Virus record (IMG/VR): IMGVR_UViG_3300020472_000215
Location: 1 to 20,269 of that record
DNA: 20,269 nucleotides
Strand: one strand, 5' to 3'
Origin: a virus
In this document: positions 6,478 through 19,034 of the stretch, in pieces
Numbering within the stretch: position 1 is the first letter of the stretch
Layout: each line of letters begins with the position of its first letter
The notes under the pieces: generated by a model
What the model was told of the DNA's origin: nothing
What the model saw: only the letters and a program-made list of their open reading frames with translations
The model's database searches: none
Made by a program: the position numbers and the translations under genes

Positions 6478-7898
6478 TATTCATCTTCTTCTATTACTTC
6501 TTCTTCTGTCACTTCTTCTTGCGGTTGTTCCATATCAATTAAACCGCCCATCTGAGTAGATTCCAACTCTTGCTCTATATCAAATTCATCTCCTAACACC
6601 TCCCCTTCTTCTAACTGCTTCAATAAGGTTTCTTGCGTGATCGTTCCAGCAGTATATAACTGAAGCAAACTTCCTATCTCTTGCGGATCAAGACGAGCTG
6701 CTAAGAAGTCTCTATTTACAAAACTACTTCCAGACTCGTTGCTTCCTAAATAATTCGCATGAAACAGAAGACAGTTATCAATCATATCCTGAATCTGCTG
6801 TGCCAAGACCATTAGCGTACTATTTCCTTGAGAGTGGTCTATTTCTTTTGATTTTGCTGTCTCTGCGGATAGCTTGGATCCTTGCACAGCCGCTAAACTT
6901 AGATTGTTTATTTGCTTTTCGATCTGTTCAAGTTGCTTAAATTGAGCTTCAAAACCTTTACCATCAGGCTCAATATATTCTGCCCGACCTTCAGCAGGGA
7001 AAGCAATAGCTTCTCCTGGACCAGCAGAAAGTTCTTCTGACGATTGAGGGAAACCAAAAAAAGCTAAAAATGGGACACTGCTTACATGTAATTGATTAGC
7101 AAGATCTGAACCGCATTGATACGAGCGAAGATTGAGTTCAGCAATGTCCTCTAGTGGAGGACGTGACTCCATAAAATTCACCCTGTTGGAATAAGCAACA
7201 GCAAAAGGAATTTCTGTTAATGATGTTGTTCCTTCTTCATGCAATGTATATTCACCACTTTTTTTGTTCTTGCGGTGTATCTCAAAAGTTCCAGGCGTTA
7301 ATACTCTTACCTGCTCAACTTCTTTTTCCCCATAAGCTCCATCTTGTTCTATTACTTTTTCCAAAAGCCTTAGCTGTGTAAATTTCTGCATACCATCAAT
7401 AATTTCTGTTCTCCATCCCAGTATTTCCCTCGGCGTATAAGTACACCAATAAGGACGGCCCTTTGATCCAGCAGCAGGCGCATCAACCAAAACGCCACAG
7501 TGTCCATATCTTATAGCCAATTTTGCTAACTCAAAAGTCCATACATTTAAATCATTTCCTTGAAGGTCTACATCAAACAATTGCTCTCTAATTACATCAC
7601 CAACATCATTCAAACGAACAGGTTTTCTAACTAACATTCCTGCCAACATTCTCTCAATGCGTTGCAGATATGGAGGGACAACAGAACGTGAAAGTCTTGC
7701 ATCATAAGAGACATCTTGTTCAGAAGGTTCTTGTGGAAGATACCTTCTGTGTTTTTTACGAATACTAAACGAACCTCCTTGGAGGTCTTCTATAAGAATC
7801 CAATGCGGTTCCATATTCTGCCAAGCAAAACATGGGTCTTCTACCGTCACACCTGCGGCGGCTTTTTCTCGGTTGTAATGCTGATAGCCGCTATACAC
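6477..7898 (-). CDS. Portal protein (DUF4055-like)
   Basis: A 473-residue portal, the dodecameric ring through which DNA enters and leaves the head. N-terminal features include SRSVVPPYLQRIERMLAGMLVRKP (in part, about residues 80-102), a segment with YGHCGVLVDAPA, and a later stretch SLAAVQGSKLSAETAKSKE, typical of portal stem/crown regions. The order terminase, portal, MuF is conserved in many phages. The start is GTG at 7898, preceded by GAGG at a good distance. The C-terminus is strongly acidic (EEVTEEEVIEEDE) and overlaps the MuF start by one base. The DUF4055 assignment is from remembered family pattern. Confidence 0.85.
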   Translation of the reverse strand: MYSGYQHYNREKAAAGVTVEDPCFAWQNMEPHWILIEDLQGGSFSIRKKHRRYLPQEPSEQDVSYDARLSRSVVPPYLQRIERMLAGMLVRKPVRLNDVGDVIREQLFDVDLQGNDLNVWTFELAKLAIRYGHCGVLVDAPAAGSKGRPYWCTYTPREILGWRTEIIDGMQKFTQLRLLEKVIEQDGAYGEKEVEQVRVLTPGTFEIHRKNKKSGEYTLHEEGTTSLTEIPFAVAYSNRVNFMESRPPLEDIAELNLRSYQCGSDLANQLHVSSVPFLAFFGFPQSSEELSAGPGEAIAFPAEGRAEYIEPDGKGFEAQFKQLEQIEKQINNLSLAAVQGSKLSAETAKSKEIDHSQGNSTLMVLAQQIQDMIDNCLLFHANYLGSNESGSSFVNRDFLAARLDPQEIGSLLQLYTAGTITQETLLKQLEEGEVLGDEFDIEQELESTQMGGLIDMEQPQEEVTEEEVIEEDE

Positions 7899-7939: not shown

Positions 7940-9295
7940 CTAATAAATTCTAATACCCGTTCCTCTTCCTGATCGAGCATATAAAGGATTGAACTCTCTC
8001 CAGATAACATAACCAAGTGCATCGTTCATGTGATCATACCCATTTTGCTTGTCGGGATCACCCGTTTTTTCGTCCCATGATTGTAACTCAAGAGTTTCCA
8101 CTAAGGCTCTGCAACGGGAGCTAATCTCCAACCTTGATTCTCCTTTGCCGTTACATAAAAGAGCTTGAACAGACGAGACTCTATCTTTGATTGCTGGATT
8201 CGATTTGGGACTTTGGTTCGTGAACCCATAACTTTCGAGTATGGATATATCGGTGCGTGTTGCATTTGTTGAACGGTTCCCTCCTGATGCGTCTGGATAG
8301 ACAAGAATTTTTCTTCTTGGATAGCGTCTAACCAACTCTTTCGCTAATGCGTCAGTGTCGTGAGCTTTCACAATTTCATCAATTATGACGAGCTTGTTTC
8401 CGTCCCGCACCGCTATGACGCAATTTGTATTCTGGATGTTGAAATCAATACCACAACGCAAAACTTCATCTTCGTAATTAGGCAATTTATCTTTTACATG
8501 AATGTCTCTTGAGAAACGATCATAGACTTGTCCTGTTGTTAGATTTGTAAATTGCCCTTCAAGATAAGCGGCTATTAATTGAGGTGGATAATTCTCTTTT
8601 AACGAATCAATAAAGCCTTCTGGAAGAAATGGATTATCGTATGAGCTGCCTCTTATCAAAGCAGTATCAGGTTTTGCTTCCTTTTCAAAAGTTTTAAAGC
8701 AATATCCATATCCCTCTGGAGTAGTAGAAACATAAAACTGCTGAATATTACCTGATCTCAATCTGGCAAGTGCCATTGTTTGCGCTTGTTCTGCGTCATA
8801 TTGTCCAACAGTATCTGCTTCGTCAAATCCAACCGCGCAGAGATTCTGACCTCTTAAGCGTTGATAAGTCAGGATCGTTCTAAGCAAAATCGTATGATTT
8901 CCTTCTTCAAAAATTAATTTGTATTCAGGCAAAGGCGACACTCGAAACTCATAAGGTATTTCCCACTGCTCCAGAAGCTCGTTAAAGGTACGAATTAAAA
9001 TATCTCTAAGCATCGGAGAAGTTGGCTCAAAGACAGCACTAACGAAACCAACATTCATTGCTGCCAAAATGCAAGCTTTAGAAACTAAAGCGTAAGTTTT
9101 ACCAGCTCCAAATCCACACACTAAAGCTATTTTACGATGTTCAATATCATCACAAAACAATTTTTGATGAGGCAATAAGCCTTCATAAATTCTTGAAATA
9201 ACTTCTTTGCTTGAAGGAGGAGTGTTAAAAGCAGCCTTTTCAGCAAAAGCCATTAACGGCTCGTTATCACATATCCCAGTAATTAAAGAAGTCAA
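7940..9295 (-). CDS. terL: Terminase large subunit
   Basis: A 451-residue packaging motor with ATPase and nuclease domains. The ATPase carries a Walker A-type CGFGAGKT (residues 60-67), Walker B with CAVGFDEAD (153-161, catalytic E159) and the coupling motif STTPEG (190-195). The RNase H-like nuclease shows GIDFN (D284), YPDASG (D336) and YDHMNDALGY (D421/D425), giving the usual acidic metal-binding triad. It cuts concatemers and translocates DNA into the procapsid through the portal encoded next. Its start overlaps the small terminase stop by four bases (ATGA). A 41-bp gap with no terminator separates it from the portal gene. Confidence 0.93.
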   Translation of the reverse strand: MTSLITGICDNEPLMAFAEKAAFNTPPSSKEVISRIYEGLLPHQKLFCDDIEHRKIALVCGFGAGKTYALVSKACILAAMNVGFVSAVFEPTSPMLRDILIRTFNELLEQWEIPYEFRVSPLPEYKLIFEEGNHTILLRTILTYQRLRGQNLCAVGFDEADTVGQYDAEQAQTMALARLRSGNIQQFYVSTTPEGYGYCFKTFEKEAKPDTALIRGSSYDNPFLPEGFIDSLKENYPPQLIAAYLEGQFTNLTTGQVYDRFSRDIHVKDKLPNYEDEVLRCGIDFNIQNTNCVIAVRDGNKLVIIDEIVKAHDTDALAKELVRRYPRRKILVYPDASGGNRSTNATRTDISILESYGFTNQSPKSNPAIKDRVSSVQALLCNGKGESRLEISSRCRALVETLELQSWDEKTGDPDKQNGYDHMNDALGYVIWREFNPLYARSGRGTGIRIY

Positions 9296-9633
9296 TTCAA
9301 ATCAAACCTTAATAACCGAGCCTGTAATTCCACAGCGCGTAAAGCTGCCTGATGATTACCACGTTTTGCTGCTTGAGATTCGTAATTTTGAAGACGGCTA
9401 AGGGCAGACAATAACCATTGTGGTCTCTCAATTTCAGAATCTAATTGAACCAGTATTCTTGCCCGTTTTATATAATTTTCTGCCTGTCTTAAACCAACAC
9501 TATAATTTTCCGAACAGTATTGAACGACCTGAGTTTTACTTTGACCGTTAATCAATAAGTTGTAGACAGAATTAACCCTGCAATCAATTTGTCTATCTGT
9601 TGCTTTTTTACCCATAGGCAAAATATAACTCAT
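9292..9633 (-). CDS. Terminase small subunit-like DNA-binding protein
   Basis: A 113-residue helical protein just upstream of the large terminase. Residues about 20-60 read as a helix-turn-helix unit (VYNLLINGQSKTQVVQYCSE then VGLRQAENYIKRARILV), followed by a helical oligomerisation region (RPQWLLSALSRLQNYESQ, AALRAVELQARLLR). This fits small terminases that recognise the packaging site and feed DNA to TerL. The start overlaps the upstream stop by four bases; an alternative in-frame ATG is at 9615. Assignment from HTH pattern and synteny. Confidence 0.75.
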   Translation of the reverse strand: MSYILPMGKKATDRQIDCRVNSVYNLLINGQSKTQVVQYCSENYSVGLRQAENYIKRARILVQLDSEIERPQWLLSALSRLQNYESQAAKRGNHQAALRAVELQARLLRFDLN

Positions 9634-9848
9634 TCATTAGATAAAGGCTTAAGGTCAGCTTCTTCAGCGCAATTGAGGATGTCAGCAATTCTTACAAGAT
9701 ATTGAGTTAAACCAGCAATAACTTCAGGATCTACTCGTTCACCATCGTCAATAGCATTATCAAGGATTGCATCCGCAACATGTTCAGATTGAGCGAGGAG
9801 AAGGATAAGACGATCAACAACAGGTTGATTCTTTTTTGAGACGTGCAT
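9630..9848 (-). CDS. Small acidic leading protein of the packaging operon, unknown
   Basis: A 72-residue, acidic, helical protein (VVDRLILLLAQSEHVADAIL, then ERVDPEVIAGLTQYLVRIADIL) at the head of the late minus-strand operon. It overlaps the small terminase start by four bases (ATGA). No domain is recognised. It is the first gene after the motif-rich intergenic region, so its upstream DNA must hold the operon's control signals. There is no Shine-Dalgarno before its ATG. It could be a packaging accessory or a regulator. Confidence 0.6.
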   Translation of the reverse strand: MHVSKKNQPVVDRLILLLAQSEHVADAILDNAIDDGERVDPEVIAGLTQYLVRIADILNCAEEADLKPLSNE

Positions 9849-9870: not shown

Positions 9871-10103
9871 GTGTTCCCACGTTCCTACTGTGTACCACCT
9901 TTCTTACACACTTACCTAAGCTATATATATACCCCTTATATACCTATTCTTATATTTATATATAAAAACATAGGAACAGAGGGAACATATAAAGAGAAGA
10001 GAGGTGTACCAAGGAGTTTGAGCGTTCCCACCCTTAGGAACGGAGGAGGGAACAGGAGGGAACTTACGACTTTTGCAAGTTCCAAACCCATTTGGGTGTT
10101 CCC
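9871..10103. repeat. Cluster of ten GTTCC/GGAAC motifs with AT-rich core
   Basis: The pentamer GTTCC or its complement starts at 9873, 9881, 9973, 9982, 10024, 10037, 10049, 10059, 10079 and 10098. Chance would give less than one in this length. Several are paired at 8-10 bp spacing (9873/9881, 9973/9982, 10049/10059). CGTTCC at 10023-10028 and GGAACG at 10037-10042 form an inverted repeat. The middle (about 9920-9975) is alternating A/T (tatatata). The last two copies lie inside the 3' end of the primase gene. No convincing gene lies in the gap 9849-10063. The layout fits iterons/operators or a replication origin; function is inferred. Confidence 0.55.
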
Positions 10104-12106
10104 TCAACTCTTTTTTTCTTTCTCTCGTACTTCAAACTTTTGAGAATAGATGAGACAGTCATGGTGTCCGATTTTGTTTGACGTTCCACTGGTTTTTCAA
10201 TGGCTTCGATAAGTAGTTTTTCAATAGTTACATCCGTACTTTGATTAACAGGATTATTTAACCATTGACTGATAACAGTTAACCAAGGCGAATCAACCAT
10301 ATAACCTAAATTTTCTTTTTCTATTTGGTTTTCCTGTTCAAAGGTTAGGAAATGTGCCTCCTTATTTTTCCAGGCATGAACGGCTGCGGCCCATATCGAA
10401 TCACGTTCTAATTGAAGCCCATCAAGATCAATAGATTCAACGGTGCAAGGGATAACATGAAAGCGGCGGTTGCCAGTGTCATCAAATAACAGACCTGATT
10501 CTTTATTAGAAGATCCAACAATAATTCCACGGCGCGGCCATTCTTCTACAGCTTTACCGTAAGGAACCCGTAAGAAATCTGTAGAGCGCGATAAAAAAGA
10601 CTTAATATGGCCAGCATGTTTTCTAGATGTCACGCTGTCCAATTCGGCCCATTCCATTCCCCATGACTTATGTAAAATTAATATCGAATCTTTCGAGGAA
10701 ATATCGTCAAGAGCGTCCGAGAAAAAGGGGCCAAAGACCGTACTCCAAAAGGAGGATTTTTTTATCCCCTGCCGACCTTGAAGAACAGTTGCGGTATCGT
10801 GCTTACAGCCAGGAAGATATACACGTCTCACGGCGTTTATCAGAGTTACCTTAAGCATTGCATCGTAAATTGTTGGTTCACCAATGGATGCGTCTTGCGG
10901 TCTAAGATATGTTGTTGCTAATTGTTCGATGTAAGTAGGTTCAACTTCAGAAGAAACGTGATCTAAATAAAGTTTTACGGGATCATATTGATTTTCATGC
11001 GCGACCTTAAGCAGACAATCAATCGCCATTTGCTTTTCGACTTTAAATCCAAGCTCGGCGAGCATTAGGTAAAAGAGTTCAATATTTTTTATAACTGCAC
11101 CGTCCATTTCGATTGAGTGTGAAAAAGTATTGAAACGAATTTCTTGTTTTGATTTACGAAGGAATGAAATTAACTCTTGTGATGTGAGCTGTTCAAGTTT
11201 TGAAGGGATCGGAGTTGTTTGCTCTTCTTGAACAGGAACAACAGAATCAGGAAAAACGCGAGGAGGAGAAGTCCACCCATCTTCTTTAGCAAATTTCTGA
11301 AGAGTACCTAGAGAGATGCCAGAGCGTTTAAAGGAATCCCATTTCTTTGCACATTCGCCTGGTTTGTATTTGCTGTTTTTCTGAGACAGGTCTTCCCAAT
11401 CTGCAAGAAGTGAATCACCTGCGGAGTGAGCTGCCATTCCAATTTTGATCCATTGGTCGTAGTCATCAACGCGGTTGGGATTAATTGATTGAAGAAGCGA
11501 ACGGGCTTTATCTATATCTGAGTTAAAAGCTTCAACGGGTACAGGCTTCGCTTTCTTCCTTGATGGCTCCATCATCTTTTGAATAATGGTTAAGGGAGCT
11601 TCTGCTATTTCAAGATCAGAAGGTGAGCGTCCATCCATCCACCTATAGCCGTCAGTCGTTGGATGCTTACCACAGACAATAGATTGTGCTCCATCCCATC
11701 GGAGTTCGATTTGTTCAACGGAGCCGTCAGAATCTTTAACACCTGTTTGAAATTTGCGTGTTTTAATCTTCGGCCAATATTTCTCAGGAACTTTGTAGAT
11801 GAGTTGAAAGCGACCAACCCGTCCTGAAGTAACCATCCAAGAAGGAGGCAAAGAGCCAATAGAAAAACCCCATTCGGTAAGAACTTCTGAAGCGGATTTA
11901 CCATCATGATCGAGGAAGAGAAGACCGCCGCTAGGAGTTCCGCAGCAAACACCAATACCAGTTGATCGACCTGCTGTAATTTCTTTGAAGAGTTGCGCTC
12001 TTGTTAAAGGATTGTTCTGCCAATCATTTTGATAGGGGCGTTTATTTTGAACGGCGACAAAACCCCAGTCCTTCGGCAAGCGAAGAATTTCATCTTTTAT
12101 TGTCAT
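10064..12106 (-). CDS. Primase-polymerase / VapE-type helicase fusion
   Basis: A 680-residue replication protein with three parts. Residues 1-180 are a bifunctional primase-polymerase domain: GIGVCCGTPSGG, the acidic pair in LFLDHDG (D66, D68), and the histidine of CGKHPTTDGYRW (H148). Residues about 198-275 match the primase C-terminal PriCT-2 helix set (YDQWIKIGMAAHS, ECAKKWDSFK). Residues about 405-600 are a VapE-type AAA/helicase domain with Walker A GRQGIKKSS (443-452), MEWAELD (484-490), the sensor-like GSSN (531-534) and a GNRRF arginine finger (545-549). It likely primes and unwinds phage DNA. The start lies 4 bp after the RHH-like gene's stop, suggesting co-transcription from the divergent promoter at 12340. 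Confidence 0.88.
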   Translation of the reverse strand: MTIKDEILRLPKDWGFVAVQNKRPYQNDWQNNPLTRAQLFKEITAGRSTGIGVCCGTPSGGLLFLDHDGKSASEVLTEWGFSIGSLPPSWMVTSGRVGRFQLIYKVPEKYWPKIKTRKFQTGVKDSDGSVEQIELRWDGAQSIVCGKHPTTDGYRWMDGRSPSDLEIAEAPLTIIQKMMEPSRKKAKPVPVEAFNSDIDKARSLLQSINPNRVDDYDQWIKIGMAAHSAGDSLLADWEDLSQKNSKYKPGECAKKWDSFKRSGISLGTLQKFAKEDGWTSPPRVFPDSVVPVQEEQTTPIPSKLEQLTSQELISFLRKSKQEIRFNTFSHSIEMDGAVIKNIELFYLMLAELGFKVEKQMAIDCLLKVAHENQYDPVKLYLDHVSSEVEPTYIEQLATTYLRPQDASIGEPTIYDAMLKVTLINAVRRVYLPGCKHDTATVLQGRQGIKKSSFWSTVFGPFFSDALDDISSKDSILILHKSWGMEWAELDSVTSRKHAGHIKSFLSRSTDFLRVPYGKAVEEWPRRGIIVGSSNKESGLLFDDTGNRRFHVIPCTVESIDLDGLQLERDSIWAAAVHAWKNKEAHFLTFEQENQIEKENLGYMVDSPWLTVISQWLNNPVNQSTDVTIEKLLIEAIEKPVERQTKSDTMTVSSILKSLKYERKKKRVEGTPKWVWNLQKS

Positions 12107-18858: not shown

Positions 18859-19034
18859 TGTCCACGCCAATTTCTCGGTTTGTTGGCTTCCATTCTTGCC
18901 AGGTCTTTCTCAATAGCATTCAGGCGGTGAAAAATTTCTCTAATGTCACCTTGCCTTTTGCTTGACCTGTTAGACAAGACCATCAGCAACGCTGACACCA
19001 TAGCACCAATTAAAGCAGCAATAACTTCAGGCAT
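18855..19034 (-). CDS. Small protein with N-terminal membrane helix and coiled coil
   Basis: A 59-residue protein: MPEVIAALIGAMVSALLMVL is a membrane helix (about residues 3-20). It is followed by the basic SNRSSKRQG and a charged helix (DIREIFHRLNAIEKDLARME) reading as a short coiled coil. This topology is shared by many phage membrane microproteins linked to lysis or to phage exclusion. It overlaps the upstream gene by eight bases and the downstream one by four. Holin-like function is possible but unproven. Confidence 0.65.
   Translation of the reverse strand: MPEVIAALIGAMVSALLMVLSNRSSKRQGDIREIFHRLNAIEKDLARMEANKPRNWRGQ

Follow-up and report, generated by a model that had tools for sequence, protein, structure and literature searches.

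A Conserved Iteron Array at the 3' End of a Primase–Helicase Gene as a Probable Replication Origin in Tailed Phages

The repeat array located at the end of the primase–helicase gene of the viral DNA analysed here (hereafter the window, a linear virus record of 20,269 bases) is very probably the replication origin of a tailed phage, of the type found in SaPI and PICI elements, and the C-terminal winged helix of the adjoining primase–helicase is, to judge from sequence comparisons, the domain that would bind its iterons. The position of the array, its conservation, its coincidence with the weakest duplex, its covariation with the winged helix and the performance of a single-residue rule on unseen relatives were computed directly; the functional steps, from protein binding through helicase loading, melting and priming to initiation itself, are proposed by analogy with known systems. 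The covariation of the wing with the repeat hints, moreover, at how such an initiator may recognise its own start site. A preliminary description of this DNA had left open an origin, a packaging site or late-promoter control. Of these readings, an origin with iterons beside an AT-rich element is upheld by position, conservation, weakest duplex and winged-helix covariation, while the packaging site is not. The array and its surroundings comprise the following features, given in window coordinates.

9873–9881, minus strand: iteron CGTGGGAAC, outer set
9881–9889, minus strand: iteron AGTAGGAAC, outer set
9890–9897, no strand: GTGTACCA, probable degenerate (decayed) iteron, with a second copy at 10004–10011
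9922–9971: AT-rich tract between the two iteron sets, putative unwinding element, least stable 50 bp of the window
9969–9977, plus strand: iteron CATAGGAAC, gene-side set, beside the AT tract
9978–9986, plus strand: iteron AGAGGGAAC
10024–10032, minus strand: iteron GGTGGGAAC
10033–10041, plus strand: iteron CTTAGGAAC
10045–10053, plus strand: iteron GGAGGGAAC
10055–10063, plus strand: second copy of iteron GGAGGGAAC, abutting the primase stop codon
10079–10087, minus strand: iteron-like GTTTGGAAC, within the primase coding region
10098–10106, minus strand: iteron TGAGGGAAC, within the primase coding region, its GGAAC kept in clade A
10064–12106, minus strand: initiator gene, 680 aa, with Prim-Pol, PriCT_2, VapE ATPase and C-terminal winged helix
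10076–10288, minus strand: winged helix, initiator residues 607–677, from AlphaFold2 models
10121–10123, minus strand: codon of R662 in the wing, the residue that best predicts iteron base 4
9292–9848, minus strand: two small genes behind the array, 72 and 113 aa
7940–9295: TerL, after the two small genes

Ten copies of GTTCC or its complement GGAAC occur between 9873 and 10102, as the preliminary description had counted, starting at 9873, 9881, 9973, 9982, 10024, 10037, 10049, 10059, 10079 and 10098; about 0.6 would be expected per 233 bp, since the whole window contains 54. The further details of that account also proved accurate: pair spacings of 8, 9 and 10 bp are all found, as are an inverted pair CGTTCC/GGAACG and an alternating A/T run between copies, and the last two copies (10079 and 10098) are coding because the primase stop on the minus strand lies at 10064, the next gene starting at 9848. 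An eleventh copy, at 10183, is situated deeper inside the primase gene, beyond the interval 9871–10103. Shuffling the window 200 times with dinucleotides preserved never packed more than five copies of this pentamer into 233 bp, a number reached once, and 1000 shuffles of the 233 bp alone gave at most four, twice. The raw pentamer count was rejected as sufficient proof, given that three other pentamers also reach at least ten in some 233-bp stretch, namely ATATA (14, at the array), AAAAA (13) and AGAAG (10, near 6485). The GTTCC count is therefore not unique, and it is conservation that convinces.

Read as 9-mers ending in GGAAC, nine of the ten repeats carry a purine at base 4, the tenth, within the coding region, having T. 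Two copies (9873–9889) lie on one side of the AT tract at 9922–9971 and eight on the other, from 9969 on, and the copies next to the tract on its two sides, 9873–9889 and the pair at 9969–9986, are in opposite orientation. Beyond this pair, six further copies extend toward and into the primase gene, two of them being coding.

An array at the end of the primase gene is present in the window and in 79 of the 80 relatives fetched first, which share 77–93% protein identity; the remaining record (L070) is cut off there. The outcome that the preliminary description had named as fatal to its reading, loss of the repeats while the flanking genes stay, is thus the opposite of what was found. In clade A (30 rows including the window, two of them incomplete), each row contains 7–11 copies of GTTCC, and same-orientation neighbours lie 8–12 bp apart in 139 of 157 cases, with the other 18 at 19 bp. 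Clade B (51 loci) mixes GTTCT with GTTCC, its 48 complete loci holding 8–10 in total. At about the place of the degenerate copy at window positions 9890–9897, some loci (L006, L018 and others) contain an intact extra iteron. Furthermore, the gene of the primase of Synechococcus phage S-LBS1, which is 45% identical, is followed at the corresponding place by a different repeat, AGGTTAGGCAG. In L020, L060 and other clade-B loci, the last ~15 primase residues are translated repeat DNA (e.g., WVWFLPVLTPVLTTENA in L028), because the reading frame continues into the array.

Arrays were also sought de novo with an 8-mer scan allowing one mismatch and up to ten control windows per locus, an exact 6-mer scan being too blunt for degenerate repeats. 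The 152 loci searched comprised the window, S-LBS1 and 150 of 160 fetched loci, leaving out those without a stop or with under 200–250 bp behind the gene. All control windows were beaten in 127 of the 152: 28/28 in clade A, 70/76 in the S-LBS1 group and 29/48 in clade B, whose arrays are weaker by this score, 19 of the 48 failing to beat the controls. The same holds for 167 of 204 further viral loci, many of them on contigs already counted, and for 35 of 75 loci on genome contigs, mostly alphaproteobacterial by title; among three full-length relatives on genome contigs, one beats the controls and L378 and L379 do not. Eight of 11 VapE-type phages and satellites from GenBank beat all control windows, each with its own repeat (Staphylococcus 47, C. 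difficile phiCDKH02, Rhodobacter RcMrWorf, Corynebacterium StAB, Paenibacillus Bloomfield, streptococcal satellite Javan748, Streptococcus PH15 and APSE-1), and no significant array was found behind the gene in S-2L, CKB-S1 and HNL35. The iteron behind VapE in StAB (L481), TGGAACAA, resembles the GGAAC core of the window in a phage of an unrelated host, a likeness that is likely due to convergence. No significant array was found behind VapE in L398–L400, L402–L407, L410, L411, L413, L415–L417, L419, L423, L433 and L434; these copies have near-identical C-terminal ends and titles that mostly name Rhodobacteraceae relatives, and they may be domesticated.

The AT tract provides a second, physical line of evidence. 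No 50-bp segment of the window is less stable than 9922–9971, inside the A/T run, which ranks first of 20220. Among loci of at least 5 kb with 300 bp behind the gene, the 50-bp stretch of lowest duplex stability falls within the array in 57 of 58 clade loci and in 48 of 65 loci of the S-LBS1 group; random segments contain it in 0.3% and 1.1% of cases, respectively. The GC-skew analysis that had been suggested gave a divided answer: in the clade of the window, three long records place the minimum 508, 56 and 19 bp away from the array, but it is far from the array in five of the 11 records. In other records, the minimum of the detrended cumulative skew is found at 323 bp (S-LBS1), 770 bp (G004) and 1.7 kb (G003) from the array. 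The curve of the window is flat from 9.8 to 11 kb and lowest at 10694, and the sense-strand skew of the primase gene is near zero (−0.01), unlike that of most neighbours. As the skew signal is mixed with gene direction and five of 11 records disagree, GC skew was rejected as decisive evidence, and it lends mild support to the array as an origin.

The protein encoded beside the array unites Prim-Pol, PriCT_2 and VapE/VirE domains in a single chain, as PrimQH-like initiators do, with Pfam matches to PF09250 (E 5e-17), PF08707 (E 1e-21) and PF05272 (E 2e-60). The C-terminal winged helix of such initiators appears in predicted models (AlphaFold2), with helices at residues 607–617, 628–635 and 645–657 and wing strands at 660–667 and 670–677; modelled alone, this domain reaches a pLDDT of 88.8 and a pTM of 0.77. 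The top Foldseek match of the whole model is 7pds, "The structure of PriRep1 with dsDNA" (E 2e-10; molecule name "Similar to D. nodosus vapE"), followed by entries of NrS-1 primase-polymerase and pRN1 ORF904. In a profile search of solved structures, 7pds is the sole match at E ≤ 0.01 (E 4e-33, over the ATPase). PriRep1 presumably comes from a SaPI. With the winged helix alone, Foldseek returned no match at E 0.001 or better, and structural alignment placed many winged-helix proteins among tied matches (Z 5–7; 7pds, Z 6.0). The leading matches being tied, no kinship closer than "winged helix" is therefore claimed. The P4 alpha protein, a wHTH relative, is not among the best 50 structural matches listed for this domain.

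It is this winged helix that diverges with the repeat. Only protein positions 551, 615 and 664 separate clades A and B at ≥90%, and position 659 nearly does so (K in 30/30 vs. H or Q in 49/50); three of these four positions are within the winged helix. At matched N-terminal divergence (0.072 and 0.073), the winged helix differs by 0.238 in 518 pairs with different repeats vs. 0.100 in 337 pairs with the same repeat. Likewise, the protein differences between L041 and L060 or L078 are concentrated toward the C-terminus, as they are in the matched-divergence pairs.

At the level of single residues, the iterons of the S-LBS1 group share a frame, roughly GGT-[T/A/G]-[G/A]-G-[G/C/A/T]-[C/A]-[A/C], in which base 4 looked linked to residue 662. 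This association was first spotted by eye, after which all 672 usable protein columns were scanned in the 86 of the 152 loci with a confident array and a well-fitting repeat frame, reduced to 43 by removal of near-copies; nearly all clade-B loci were lost in this selection, L064 being their representative. Column 662 is the best of the 672 for base 4, with 41/43 correct in leave-one-out prediction, the next column attaining 36/43 and 200 label shuffles never exceeding 34. Arginine at 662 goes with A or G in 23 of 24 loci, and K, Q or S with T in 19 of 19, the one exception being L140, whose repeat register is ambiguous. The best columns for base 7 (671, 39/42) and base 9 (666, 36/42) are also in the wing, and that for base 8 (611, 38/42) is in the first helix; at bases 1 and 5 the variation is too small to tell.

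The rules were fixed in writing before new loci were fetched. On unseen, non-redundant relatives, the base-4 rule predicted 15 of 15 and then 4 of 4 loci correctly, in total 19/19. The first set began with 127 confident full-length loci and shrank to 15 once near-copies, whether of one another or of the 86 retained loci, had been taken out, those resembling dropped training loci (e.g., L146) being excluded only if identical at the end; the second went from 118 loci to 59 confident ones and, after near-copy removal, to 4. The same test gave 8/12 for base 7 and 0/1 for base 9, and these two rules are kept as suggestions. A tree built from residues 1–600, which leaves the winged helix aside, requires at least 14 changes of base 4, nine of them forced by starred branches, and residue 662 changes with base 4 in eight of nine independent pairs, with none opposite and one showing no difference (p 0.008). 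The rule is local and limited in its family range. Its extension to distant alphaproteobacterial VapE genes was rejected, since at least 12 loci there, judged by eye without an alignment, combine R with T (L418, L420, L421, L429, L432, L439, L441, L442, L446, L447, L453 and L454); L395 breaks it as well, with K and A, and L380, L414 and L438 agree with it.

Several pairs of genes suggest that the winged helix and the repeat change as a unit. L094 and L102 are 97% identical over residues 10–560 and 50% in the winged helix, with iterons GGTAGGGCA vs. GGTTGGCA; L083 and L092 (body 87%, winged helix 49%) and L120 and L125 (body 83%, winged helix 42%) also differ in their iterons. To judge by these identities, such pairs look like the exchange of winged helix plus origin as one piece. 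It is untrue that the differences between close relatives are confined to the winged helix, as S-LBS1 differs from L084 and L085 in the N-terminus and the linker too. In L083 (the S-LBS1 record), about 120 bases of the array, from 34266 on, recur at the end of the record, from 34520 on, which raises its repeat count somewhat and is perhaps an assembly or end effect.

The balance leans, with considerable reserve, towards a broader reading, namely that PrimPol–VapE phages carry at the 3' end of the gene an exchangeable and fast-diversifying cassette of winged helix plus iterons that would be swapped between near-identical genes. In the full-length family, a code would apply in which residue 662 sets base 4 (R for a purine; K, Q or S for T) and residues 671/653 and 666 contribute to bases 7 and 9, and origin identity would be under selection to change. 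If this is true, such change could serve the escape from satellites, origin-cutting nucleases or co-infecting relatives. A pressure of the nuclease type as the driver of origin diversity in these phages is speculation by analogy with the RepA–ori modules of PLE, the Vibrio cholerae satellites, whose exchange has been proposed as a way around an origin-cutting nuclease (PMC8263062, excerpts).

The mechanism proposed for the array is modelled on the behaviour of SaPI Rep and Cch2 (excerpts of PMC7581432) and on the layout of PICI origins (excerpts of PMC6092414). The winged helix would use its wing to bind the 9-bp iterons, whose last bases are RGGAAC in the clade of the window, in two sets flanking the AT tract and oppositely oriented beside it. 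The bound protein would then load as VapE ring helicases on the AT tract and unwind it, giving the Prim-Pol domain an opened site at which to prime. Since the site directly borders the gene and partly lies within it, winged helix and origin could be passed on or swapped as a single cassette, and the wing would diverge in step with the repeat.

Among known systems, the rep–ori units of SaPIs and PICIs are the closest in layout. There, too, the origin lies directly 3' of the initiator gene (layout in excerpts of PMC6092414), as does the window array, inside which the primase stop at 10064 is located. The iterons recognised by SaPI Rep and by Cch2 lie directly downstream of the respective genes, and SaPI Rep uses its C-terminal domain for origin recognition (PMC7581432, excerpts); PICI Rep plus ori drive autonomous plasmid replication (PMC6092414, excerpts). 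A further likeness is that the best structural match and the only sequence-profile match of the initiator is 7pds PriRep1. Unlike these elements, the window belongs to a phage record and not to a satellite, since the fragment has its own terminase and head genes (Pfam matches to a terminase large subunit and a Mu-F-like head protein, besides a DUF4055 protein). Moreover, its primase, helicase and winged helix form one protein and the array enters the coding region, although PICI pri and rep are "sometimes fused" too (PMC6092414, excerpts).

The SCCmec helicase Cch2 is comparable in having short iterons just downstream of its gene, bound by its C-terminal domain; the SCCmec origin, with AAGTG iterons, is putative, and the associated primase prefers iterons. 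It differs in that this primase is a separate complex of polymerase type and that the iterons are three only (all from excerpts of PMC7581432). In PLE RepA, as in the phages examined here, the DNA-binding domain of the initiator covaries with the iterons and is swapped with the origin as a module, but this domain is of RepA_N type, its iterons are semi-palindromic and ~30 bp long, and the initiator is not a primase–helicase (excerpts of PMC8263062). The domain order of the PrimQH family (AEP, PriCT, VirE or another ATPase, winged helix) is identical to that of the window protein, and its winged helix has been suggested to recognise origins, whereas the term "iteron" is absent from the text of PMC5862659, excerpts of which give neither an origin position nor a base–residue correspondence.

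No family-wide origin or residue–base rule was found in CC-licensed PMC literature searched by titles and the beginnings of abstracts. As far as this search can tell, the array is thus of a known kind, a PICI-type origin, here in tailed phages, and the residue–base rule and the cassette exchange are the more novel part. Reportedly, Foley et al. (1998) described in Streptococcus phage Sfi21 a noncoding element with the characteristics of an origin, which we take to lie behind a primase gene. The layout has been described as unique to phage-inducible islands, a view that these phage loci contradict if they function as origins. It occurs behind VapE genes in phages of cyanobacterial, firmicute, actinobacterial and proteobacterial hosts and could therefore help to suggest origins in the genomes of many uncultured phages. 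In addition, the base–residue rule makes it possible to test with natural protein pairs how initiator and origin can change together without losing each other, and the structure of the cassette suggests that phages and satellites could switch their replication identity in a single recombination step.

Three alternatives to the origin were weighed. It is very unlikely that the array is primarily a transcription operator, at which a regulator, possibly the primase–helicase itself, would control the late or packaging operon or its own gene. The array does lie upstream of the packaging operon, and replication initiators often autoregulate. However, the array keeps its place at the primase even where other genes lie downstream, the covarying DNA-binding domain belongs to the primase–helicase, and a simple operator would not need some ten sites, on both strands, surrounding the least stable duplex of the locus. 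An added regulatory function, including late-promoter control, is possible as a second role of the origin.

Even less likely is that the iterons serve mainly as single-stranded priming sites read by Prim-Pol and PriCT, rather than as duplex sites of the winged helix. Precedents for this role are CCPol-MP, which primes at the SCCmec iterons (PMC7581432, excerpts), and NrS-1 primase-polymerase, which uses TTTGGTTA and GTG-type sites resembling the GGTTAGG and GGTGG iterons (PMC8718748, excerpts). Against it, the best columns for bases 4, 7 and 9 (662, 671 and 666) are all in the wing, that for base 8 (611) belongs to the first helix, and the AT tract is bordered by copies in both orientations. 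Priming and duplex binding may operate at once.

Across relatives, the type of repeat follows the primase and not the small terminase. The latter was taken to be the 113-aa gene product, which has no Pfam match and was assigned from gene position alone. L062 (GTTCC) and L024 (mainly GTTCT) have small terminases that are 97% identical despite their different repeats, and the window and L062, both with GTTCC, share only 28% in this protein. A DNA-methylase-like gene (as in L020) or 3.6 kb (L006) may intervene between array and terminase, the array staying with the primase, and where a neighbouring annotated gene is shown behind a significant array in the GenBank records, it encodes a helicase, a nuclease or a hypothetical or unnamed protein, and in no case an annotated terminase. 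Hence, although terminase genes come after the array in the window and most of its clade, a packaging (pac) site, at which the product of the small-terminase gene right behind the array would bind the repeats, as the preliminary description had also considered, is the least likely reading of all. In L020, the DNA-methylase-like gene occupies about 205–1405 bases behind the primase stop. In the window, a stretch of the 72-aa gene (9707–9728) has a 22-bp match of 95% identity at the distant positions 19010–19031.
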